From: Phialocephala subalpina
Taxonomy: Eukaryota > Ascomycota > Leotiomycetes > Helotiales > Mollisiaceae
Direction: 5' to 3'
Assembly: GCA_900073065.1 (NCBI GenBank)
Contig: FJOG01000026.1
Coordinates: 80,617-144,616 of the forward strand
Length of the DNA: 64,000 bases
A program made the translations under genes and the position numbers. Under the pieces are notes generated by a model. It was not told the DNA's origin. It was given only the letters and a program-made list of their open reading frames with translations, and ran no database searches. Below are positions 23,946 through 50,348 of this stretch, piece after piece; position 1 is the stretch's first letter; each line of letters begins with the position of its first letter.

Positions 23946-26731
23946 ATGGCGTCAGCAAATGGGGTTCTGAGCCCCCTTTTGCAACCAGAGCCTCCCGCCT
24001 CTCCCTTGACTCAATCAGCAAAGCGAAAACGCGATGACGTTTCTGAGATACATACAAATGGCATCGCCAATACCAACAGTGAATCCGCAGACCATATAGT
24101 GGCACAGTCCAAGTCTTTAATCCGCGATTTGATCGATGTCTTGAAAGAGTAAGTCGTTTGATCAATGTTCAAAGGCATTTCATGGTCTCCATGTCAACCA
24201 TTCACATTCCTTGCTATCCCTCCATAGAACTTTGCGAACAAGTGCTCATGAATTTGCCCAGGTTCGATACCACGCCCTCTGTTCTCGATCGCCCGATTTC
24301 GGATCGTCCTTCATCTGCTGGCCCTGAAGCCAAGCGCCAGAAGGCCGAAAGCACGGATACACAGCGGTCTATCTTGACACGATTCTCTGGCGATGTATAC
24401 AAGAATATAGACGAGGTCCTCGAAGATATCGATAGTGCAGTGTCCGATATGATGGATACACTCCGACTGCCAAATGGCACTGCTCAACTCTCTGGCCATC
24501 AATCTGCGATGTCTATGAAGATCACAGCATTCAAGCAAAGAGCTCACGAGCTTATCAAGAGCGAGAAATTCATACAAGAGAAGAAACTGAATACTGGTGT
24601 GAATGCCGCATCTTCTACGAACTACAATCTGAACGGGGGACATGCTGTCACACAGATCAACCCTGCCTCCTCTGACAAGATGGTTCTCACCCTTTATGGA
24701 AGTGCTCCCGGTCCCAAGCAACTGTTCTCTAGTCTCCAGATTCCTCCAAAGAGCACAGGAGAGCAGAAGGACATTCTTCAGACTCTGCGAGAAGTCGGCC
24801 TTCCTAACGGTATTACAGCAACGCGGATCGTACAATCGACTGGTCTGCCGTCTGACGATAAAAAGCGAGTTCCAACATTGGGCGAACTATTTCCAACCCC
24901 AGCGAATGTCCCCAGTCTGTTACCTCCGAAGCCTTCGAAAATTGCAACCACGAGGTCATTGACAGTGGGTTGGTATCAGCCATCTGCCAGCGACTCCTTG
25001 CCAAGAAGTGCCAGCTATTCCAAGCAGTCAATTTCTTGCGGACATTGGCTTGATTACAGCAATGTATCTGCTTCATCGCAAGGTACCAAGCGAAAGCGCG
25101 ACCGTGCCTTGAGTCTCGTCGGCGCAAAGACACCAACAGAACTCGAGCCAGTGGAATCCGAGGTTGCAAAGCTTGATGCTTTATTCCGAAGCGCTTACTC
25201 TGGGTTCGCCCCAACGAAAGATGATGCAGCCGCTGTTGCCCCGGCCAGAGTGTTGGGTCGTATGTGGTGGCAACAAGTGGGCGAGAAGAACTTCGAGAAG
25301 ATGGTCGAGAGTGCAACAGATGACGTGGCCACGGACGAGTTGAACTCTACTTCGAACGAGGTCACGGACACATCCATTAAGCTCGAAGAGATTGAAAAGA
25401 TGATTGAAGAACTTGAGAACGATGGCATAGATCCGACCCTTGTTCCTCTCGAAGCTGCACCTGAAAAGTCTGTCGAGGAAAGGGACGCCGAAGAGATCCT
25501 CGAGGGTATTTCTGAATTATTGGAGACCTTGAACTCCTATCAACGAATTCGACATATGTCACTGAATCCCTCGAGTCGGCCGGCAGGTCTTCTGTCTGCC
25601 CCGGACACCAGTTCCCAGGGCACGCCAACAAAGCCAAGCGAATCGGAGCAGGCTACTTACGAGATCCTGAAGTCTCAATTGACTCTCATGATTGCAACAT
25701 TGCCGCCATATGCCGTCGCAAAATTGGACCCTGACCGTCTAGCAGAATTGAGTATCAGCACAAAGATCGAGGTGCCTATGAACGACTACAAGGGTGTCAT
25801 GGAGGAGGATGAAGCCGTAGCTAGGGCCAAGGTCGCCTCAATGACAGCAACTTCGTCAACTGCACGCGCCGCCCCTGCCACAACTTCAAGTCACCGAACC
25901 AGCTCAGCTTCGTTATATGGCAATCAATACGCTCCCAGTCGTTCTGCCCAGGCTCCTGCATCCCAATACTATGGTGCGCAGACCCCAATCCGCCCGCCTT
26001 CGACAAATTACCAGCGACCACCTGCCACTGCACCGGTTGCTTATCAACCCCAACGAGCTGCCGTTCCTGCTTCGGCTCCTTACCGCCCAGGCCCAGCTTA
26101 TGGAACTCCAACCTACCCACACCAGAACCCCAGACCTGTCCAACAGGCTTACGCGCCCGCCAGCCAACAGTATCAGACTCCTTCTAATCAAGCCTATATG
26201 CAACCACCAAGACAGAGCTATCAGCACGTCCCTCAGGCAGTTCAGTCTGGCCAATTGAATGGCAGATATCCCAGTCAACCCGCATATGCTAACCAAACAC
26301 CAACAACGCAGCAGAATGCTATGCAATATGGCTACAATAATGGTGTCAATGTCCCTCGTCAGGTGTCTCCTCAGAAGCCGATATACAGCCCTCAACCTAC
26401 CTTGACCCAACCTCGTCCTTCTTACTCCACACCCACTCCTCCAATGCCGCAAGCTCGACCTTATATGCAACCCCAGATAGCTCAGCCATCGGTGATGAAT
26501 GGCGCGGCAGCACAAGCTCCTCCCTCCCAATATACACCAAACTCCAGCAATCTCACGAGCGGTTACCAAACGTTCATGACGCAAGAGCAACAGTCGAGTA
26601 TGATGGAGCGTCAACGTAGCCTTCTCGCAGCTCAACAACAACAGACACAGCAGAATGCTCGAAACGCAGCTATGGGCAATGCCAGTGGTGGACAGGTGAA
26701 TGGGAACAGCGCTGTTGCGGCCGGTCTTTGA
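23946..26731 (+). CDS. Hypothetical nuclear-type protein with prion-like Q/P/Y-rich C-terminal third
   Basis: Two exons: 23946-24148 and 24262-26731, giving 890 aa (113-nt intron, phase 2). The start at 23946 (MASANGVLSPLLQPEPP) is the first Met that leads into the conserved part. Upstream in-frame codons are probably 5' UTR. Two basic KRKRDD/KRKRDR patches look like nuclear signals. A central conserved segment (GWYQPSASDSL, CGHWLDYS, LDALFRSAYSGFAPTKDD, LGRMWWQQVGE) is folded-looking. From about residue 600 the protein is low-complexity, rich in Gln, Pro, Tyr, Ala and Ser, like transcription or chromatin cofactors. I do not recognise the family with certainty. The gene is divergent from the mitochondrial protein gene across about 500 bp. 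Confidence 0.88.
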
Positions 26732-50157: not shown

Positions 50158-50299
50158 GCGGCTTTAGCTCACTTGGGAGAGCGTACGTTTGCCCATTACC
50201 ATCAATCATAGCAATTTAACTAACAATCTTCCAGGCCAGACTGAAGATCACTTCAGACATGAAATCTGGAGGCACTGTGTTCGATCCACAGAAGCCGCA
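50158..50299 (+). tRNA. tRNA-Phe(GAA) with two introns, one of spliceosomal type
   Basis: The mature tRNA assembles from 50158-50182, 50235-50246 and 50264-50299, 73 nt. Acceptor stem GCGGCTT pairs perfectly with AAGCCGC (50292-50298), with discriminator A. The D arm is GCTC-ACTTGGGA-GAGC. Anticodon stem CCAGA/TCTGG flanks the loop CTGAAGA with anticodon GAA at 50243-50245. The T arm is CTGTG-TTCGATC-CACAG. Every stem is fully Watson-Crick. Intron A (50183-50234, 52 nt) lies between positions 25 and 26. Intron B (50247-50263, 17 nt) sits at the canonical 37/38 site and contains CTTCAG, complementary to CTGAAG of the anticodon loop, as usual for eukaryotic tRNA introns. Internal A box (TAGCTCACTTGG) and B box (GTTCGATCC) are intact, but their spacing is increased by 69 nt. 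Confidence 0.93.
50183..50234 (+). other. Spliceosomal-type intron inside the tRNA-Phe gene
   Basis: The 52-nt insertion begins GTACGT, has ACTAAC at 50218-50223 and ends TTCCAG, with about 11 nt between the branch adenosine and the 3' AG. These are the same signals and length as the mRNA introns in this window (mostly 44-60 nt). Excising exactly the GT..AG span restores G26 and a perfect tRNA. A one-base shift is the only other cut that would also restore the tRNA, and it lacks GT-AG ends. Confidence 0.85.
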
Positions 50300-50339
50300 T
50301 CCTATCTGCGAATCAAGGATTACCTTGACTAGAACACAC

Positions 50340-50348
50340 TTTTTTTTT
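50340..50348 (+). terminator. Pol III-type T-run downstream of tRNA-Phe
   Basis: Nine consecutive T residues lie about 40 nt after the tRNA-Phe 3' end on the coding strand, adequate for RNA polymerase III termination. Confidence 0.6.

Follow-up and report, generated by a model that had tools for sequence, protein, structure and literature searches.

Probable spliceosomal introns in tRNA-Phe and other tRNA genes of Phialocephala subalpina

The tRNA-Phe locus

The window, meaning here the whole 64,000-nucleotide stretch of Phialocephala subalpina DNA that was analysed, contains a tRNA-Phe(GAA) gene at 50158-50299 with 52 nt inserted after nucleotide 25 (Table 1). Direct reading of the sequence bears out the GT...ACTAAC...CCAG insertion at 25/26 that had been described in an earlier note on this DNA. 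Standard tools pass over the gene: ARAGORN with default settings and Rfam make tRNA-Trp their sole call in the window. Once the 52 nt are removed, ARAGORN reports tRNA-Phe(gaa) with a score of 112.8, together with a 17-nt intron at the canonical position 37/38, which is absent from the earlier note.

The same note had stated that cutting at GT and AG restores the tRNA, and the mature sequence so obtained is indeed identical, at 72 of 72 compared positions, to that of an uninterrupted paralog (C43, L010). This identity leaves two possible registers for the boundary, which differ by one base and include the GT-AG one. The ARAGORN score is insufficient for this purpose, since 20 of 2,070 other deletions of the gene score higher.

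Table 1. Features of the interrupted tRNA-Phe gene and its surroundings, in window coordinates
Feature	Position	Strand	Remark
Upstream TATA element TATAGATTTAAATAA	50109..50123	+	C36:130725-130739; common to this genome's tRNA genes
tRNA-Phe exon 1, nt 1-25	50158..50182	+	Acceptor 5' strand, D arm, A box
52-nt GT-AG spliceosomal-type intron at 25/26	50183..50234	+
5' splice site GTACGT	50183..50188	+
Branch-site motif ACTAAC	50219..50224	+	Presumed branch A at 50223, 11 nt from intron end
3' splice site CCAG	50231..50234	+
tRNA-Phe exon 2, nt 26-37	50235..50246	+	Anticodon GAA
Canonical 17-nt tRNA intron at 37/38	50247..50263	+	ARAGORN, after removal of the 52 nt
tRNA-Phe exon 3, nt 38-73	50264..50299	+	T arm/B box about 50279-50287
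3' trailer with hairpin	50300..50339	+	Conserved in five Phe copies
T-run	50340..50348	+	Presumed Pol III terminator

A scan of the genome for other tRNA-Phe genes, suggested in the earlier note, was carried out with a pattern for the 3' half of the tRNA, which matches five sites with zero mismatches each. The exact 5' half is present at four of the five, which are the complete genes. Like the window gene, the copy at C119 is interrupted at 25/26, by a 53-nt GTAAGT...TACTAAT...CAG intron; that at C63 carries a 48-nt GTAAGG...TTCTAAC...TAG intron at 15/16, in the D loop, and C43 is uninterrupted. The fifth, C46, retains just the sequence from the AG onward. A split tRNA at C46 was considered and rejected, as the 5' half is absent from 9.7 kb upstream. 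Orphan 5' halves elsewhere do not rise above chance: the 4 exact matches are the four complete genes, and 9 matches with one mismatch compare with 34 control matches. We therefore read C46 as a 5'-truncated copy.

The T-run that the earlier note had listed among the signs of an intact gene is present, but it begins 41 nt beyond the gene, behind a trailer common to the Phe genes. This trailer of about 40 nt is found in all five Phe copies (50300-50348 in the window; C119, C63, C43 and C46). The CGCA of the acceptor 3' strand is able to pair with a TGCG within it, which is followed by a covarying hairpin, GAACA and the T-run. Trailers of Lys(CTT) (CTCGGGCTCAATTCCCGAG) and Gln(TTG) (GAACCTTTCACAGGGTTC) can also pair with the acceptor strand, and acceptor-pairing trailers accompany uninterrupted copies too.

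Interrupted tRNA genes across the genome

For the protein of window frame 24158-26731, the one window protein searched, the best match, at 98% identity, comes from Phialocephala subalpina, a root-dwelling species belonging to the P. fortinii complex (Mollisiaceae, Helotiales). In the assembly searched (68.1 Mb, 119 contigs) at least 28 interrupted tRNA genes were compiled, representing 18 isoacceptors and containing 40 insertions of 47-60 nt: Phe (3), Cys (2), Glu(TTC) (1), Ala(AGC) (3), Ala(CGC) (1), Pro(AGG) (2), Lys(CTT) (4), Gly(CCC) (1), Gly(GCC) (1), Arg(TCG) (1), Arg(TCT) (1), Thr(CGT) (1), Thr(AGT) (1), initiator-like Met (1), Tyr (2), Leu (1), Ser(GCT) (1) and Gln(TTG) (1). The set is no census, being gathered from TATA-selected sites, BLAST with concatenated tRNAs, a Cys pattern and targeted sequence look-ups; the tRNA family search scored 63 of 2,196 candidates. 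Lys and Leu anticodons were read manually, ARAGORN leaving all four Lys(CTT) genes unnamed (tRNA-???) and reading Leu as TAA; the Lys(CTT) anticodon stem contains one T-T mismatch. Excluded from the 28 are the truncated C46 Phe, damaged Thr (C64:568203), Gln (C75:330340) and His (C45:517373) copies, and a diverged Tyr copy without insertion (C47:2790259). The introns occupy 26 isoacceptor/position combinations, the outermost positions being 5/6, in the acceptor stem, and 64/65, with two insertions in some genes. None of the 40 lies within the anticodon loop, and hence none at 37/38.

The recurrence of the insertions was also assessed in a sample defined by promoter element. Elements like TATAGATTTAAATAA lie upstream of this genome's tRNA genes, and the genome contains 374 matches to it when one mismatch is allowed, whereas the reversed pattern has 74. 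From the 100 listed exact sites 98 were taken regardless of downstream content, the two dropped being C63:725631 (the third Phe gene) and C62:1380874 (an Asn gene). Each was scored for a tRNA either as it stands or with one or two GT-AG segments that contain a branch motif cut out. Of the 26 tRNA genes so obtained 10 are interrupted, or 9 of 25 if the window gene is set aside, and 16 are uninterrupted. None was obtained in the 98 reverse complements or in 20 shuffles of the 98 sites. Recurrence at 10 of 26, with empty controls, makes the insertions more than chance.

The other 72 of these 98 sites are non-tRNA and comprise 8 families (the largest with 14 members; e.g. L052, L084 and L092) and 39 singletons. 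At least one such site, L111, is a 5S rRNA gene. Twenty non-tRNA loci, with 7 of the 8 families represented, yielded no Rfam match at gathering score, and these may be new families of Pol III RNA. The tRNA-His genes L028 and L030 are each followed by a second B-box-like stretch (GGTGGTTYRATTCCA), and L041 and L153 have Ser-like tRNA bodies for which ARAGORN reads the anticodons ACT and ACC. A scan of viral contigs found nothing.

The signals of the insertions are uniform. Among the 40, 39 are GT-AG and one is GC-AG; donor position 3 is A in 32 and position 5 is G in 39. A CTRAY motif lies 9-15 nt before the AG in 36 (CTAAC 17, CTAAT 18, CTGAC 1), and three of the other four have TTAAC. The earlier note had likened the signals and size of the Phe insertion to those of mRNA introns in the window, and this extends to the whole set: donors and acceptors of the 40 insertions resemble those of 24 predicted mRNA introns, and lengths of 47-60 nt (median 52) compare with 44-121 nt (median 61). 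Branch motifs are more mixed in the predicted mRNA introns (CTGAT 7, CTGAC 7, CTAAC 6, CTAAT 4), although, since these were predicted by frame continuity with the branch motif as a selection criterion, the motif is not independent there. Depletion of T-runs was dropped as a sign of Pol III transcription, TTTT occurring in 1 of the 24 predicted mRNA introns and 2 of the 40 tRNA introns.

How far the tRNA fold alone defines these boundaries was measured in the 16 single-intron genes by scoring all deletions of 38-71 nt (about 1,570-2,320 per gene). The GT-AG excision is the single best deletion in 8 and tied best in one more. In the remaining 7, from 2 to 45 non-GT-AG deletions score higher, so that paralogs are needed to fix the boundary. 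In all 16, however, no other GT-AG excision is among the deletions scoring at least as well. After excision all 28 genes score 106-122 in ARAGORN. By the available sequence tests the insertions are most likely U2-type spliceosomal introns.

Conservation, transcription and processing

Uninterrupted copies were found for Phe (C43), Ala(AGC), Pro, Cys (C54), Tyr, Thr(AGT), Ser(GCT), Gln(TTG), Leu, Gly(GCC) and Arg(TCG), so it might be supposed that the interrupted genes are silent or decaying copies, in which introns can be tolerated as all tRNAs come from uninterrupted paralogs. Some fragments are evidently dead (C46 Phe and the damaged Thr and Gln copies mentioned above). Two Gly genes would fit the same picture: in interrupted Gly(GCC) one position of the acceptor stem is unpaired and there are two differences from the uninterrupted copy, and in Gly(CCC) an A-C mismatch leaves one acceptor position unpaired. 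Elsewhere, however, the exons are unchanged or compensated. Eight genes have mature sequences identical to that of an uninterrupted paralog (Phe1, Phe3, three Ala(AGC), Pro2 of Pro(AGG), Gln(TTG) and Thr(AGT)) and Phe2 shows one D-loop difference. The changes in Pro1 of Pro(AGG) (T-A for C-G in the acceptor stem) and in Ser(GCT) (C-G for G-C in the anticodon stem) are double changes that preserve the pair, and differences among the four Lys(CTT) copies are confined to the surroundings of the canonical intron.

The introns present a different picture. At shared sites the intron cores are 31-61% identical, compared with 33-38% (sd 7-10%) for shuffled sequences; 10 of the 21 pairs lie within one sd of the shuffled mean and 11 above. 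The exception is the pair of Tyr introns, 97% identical, which looks like a recent duplication. In Arg(TCG) (L127, C57) both introns start GTTCGTT and end AATTACTAATTGA...CAAAG, which looks as though one arose as a copy of its neighbour. The introns have thus diverged far more than the exons. This speaks against recent insertion into dead genes, which the earlier note had considered as one explanation: paralogs have intron positions in common, yet the introns themselves have diverged. Gene conversion could keep exons alike, yet it would have to skip Lys(CTT) introns lying 9 nt apart. Splice-site dinucleotides, which dead genes would lose, are intact in 40 of 40 insertions. We therefore regard silent copies as a very unlikely explanation, and the alternative that the earlier note favoured, a spliceosomal-type intron in a tRNA gene that selection still maintains, is supported by 40 insertions in 28 genes with mRNA-intron signals and conserved tRNA parts.

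The number of copies found bears on the same question. For Lys(CTT) all four are interrupted, with both intron sites in common, and for Glu(TTC), Gly(CCC), Thr(CGT) and Arg(TCT) the one copy found in each case is interrupted, although diverged copies may have been missed. Among Ala(AGC), Pro(AGG) and Cys the interrupted share is 3/4, 2/3 and 2/3, respectively. The earlier note had reasoned that intronless copies supplying all the tRNA-Phe would count against it; one uninterrupted copy does exist, at C43, which goes half of the way towards that refutation, and Phe alone is thus no proof of splicing. Three of the four complete Phe copies are interrupted. Cys illustrates how counts may miss diverged genes: BLAST gave one interrupted gene, and a D-arm pattern then added L173, interrupted in the T loop, and the uninterrupted L174, so that the claim of a sole copy was dropped. 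The Glu(TTC) pattern found the interrupted gene and two unrelated matches. Lys(TTT) was found uninterrupted (L098) and may also read AAG codons. Given this and the possibility of missed genes, it is likely, though short of proof, that an essential tRNA depends on splicing.

Related Lys(CTT) genes occur on two contigs filed under a deltaproteobacterial MAG, NYXK01000182.1 and NYXK01000116.1 (L171 and L172). Each has an insert after the anticodon and the same trailer (CTCAATTCCCGAG) as here, with no GT-AG insertion at either Lys(CTT) site. L172 carries a P450 gene divided between frames, which makes the contigs look like fungal contamination. The intron-free sites are compatible with either a gain of the introns along the Phialocephala branch or their loss from the other.

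Splicing usually goes together with Pol II transcription, and introns split the A or B boxes in several of the interrupted genes, so that these could be spliceosomal introns in genes made by Pol II as capped precursors. The earlier note had indeed thought of Pol II as a possible route to the spliceosome. Its involvement is unneeded, however: a TATA-like element, as in uninterrupted tRNA genes, lies 17-59 nt upstream in all 28 interrupted genes (part of the set having been chosen by that element), and a T-run follows within 49 nt in 22, the downstream sequence examined being just 9-29 nt in the other 6. A strong upstream element may explain how split A and B boxes are tolerated. In addition, fission yeast U6 is a Pol III RNA matured by removal of an mRNA-type intron, as described in part of PMC10484740. 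Transcription by Pol II thus appears very unlikely. The weakest proposal, that these are non-canonical tRNA-endonuclease introns in the style of archaea, nucleomorphs or Cyanidioschyzon and look like GT-AG introns by coincidence, can appeal to archaeal use of 25/26 and other non-canonical sites (PMC4090602, in part), but is hardly credible given uniform donor, branch and acceptor signals with no role in that pathway and a strict 4-bp BHB central helix that is not enriched in the 40 insertions (3 and 1 for two geometries, against 1.3 (sd 1.1) and 0.9 (sd 0.9) when permuted), a test confined to the strict helix as distinct from relaxed eukaryotic motifs.

We consider it highly probable, then, that the window tRNA-Phe is a functional nuclear gene with two classes of intron, a tRNA-endonuclease intron at 37/38 and a U2-type spliceosomal intron at 25/26, a degree of confidence that applies jointly to the whole explanation including the at least 28 intron-bearing tRNA genes and the following processing route. 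Pol III would start at the upstream TATA element and stop at the T-run. U1 and U2 would recognise the pre-tRNA through GTACGT and ACTAAC, and the spliceosome, acting in the nucleus, would remove the 52 nt. Stacking of the D and anticodon arms would then be possible, after which the 17-nt intron would be removed by tRNA endonuclease and ligase. It is also probable that spliceosomal introns have spread through the tRNA repertoire, at acceptor, D, anticodon-stem, variable and T positions, and that part of translation, at least for Lys(CUU), depends on spliceosome action on Pol III transcripts.

Comparison with known systems

Introns of eukaryotic nuclear tRNAs are taught to be removed by tRNA endonuclease, and tRNAs passing through the spliceosome would break the division of labour between the two machineries. 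If true, Pol III transcripts can be routinely spliced and tRNA supply is tied to splicing capacity; there would be a further class of tRNA intron and, in short genes with known mature sequence, a record of intron gain. Since standard tools miss such genes, as did ARAGORN and Rfam here, related fungi may have to be rescanned for tRNA genes in a way that allows for introns of this kind.

We know of no spliceosomal introns in tRNA genes, and a search of the open literature, with subscription papers largely outside its range, found no report of them. The parts of PMC11782384, PMC4090602 and PMC12730881 that were available contain no tRNA precedent. Absence of a precedent from print is not thereby established, and the nearest known case is U6 snRNA. 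In Schizosaccharomyces pombe this RNA, made by Pol III, has an mRNA-type intron that is removed during maturation (PMC10484740, in part). The likeness lies in a GT-AG intron within a short RNA transcribed by Pol III and, as we infer for the present genes, removed by splicing. U6, however, is itself part of the spliceosome, whereas the hosts here are many tRNA genes, some with two introns. Unlike that of S. pombe, U6 in this genome is uninterrupted in its 7 matches above cut-off, and the 23 such matches of 5S are likewise full length (48 and 47 candidates scored, respectively).

Canonical nuclear tRNA introns, at 37/38 and handled by the tRNA endonuclease, share with the new ones their residence in nuclear tRNA genes, and the window gene has both. 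The new introns differ in position, size, GT-branch-AG signals and the lack of a BHB signal. In the nuclear rDNA of ascomycetes, mRNA-type introns were reportedly described in a 1993 paper. There, as here, spliceosomal introns interrupt a non-mRNA gene of filamentous fungi, but rRNA is a Pol I transcript.

Introners, or introner-like elements, also place many introns in one lineage. A genome search with the body of the window intron, by contrast, turned up no second copy, and similar introns are confined to the Tyr pair and, in part, Arg(TCG); introners are named in the part of PMC12730881 available.

Insertions in the D or T arms of eukaryotic tRNA genes are mostly a mark of pseudogenes, according to part of the Yoshihisa review (PMC4090602). 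The same portion of that source describes tRNA genes of archaea, nucleomorphs and Cyanidioschyzon merolae that resemble those found here in having several introns per gene, at D, T and other positions. Those introns are of BHB type or, in Guillardia nucleomorphs, 3-24 nt long (PMC4090602), whereas the introns described here are 47-60 nt in length and carry a splice-site consensus.
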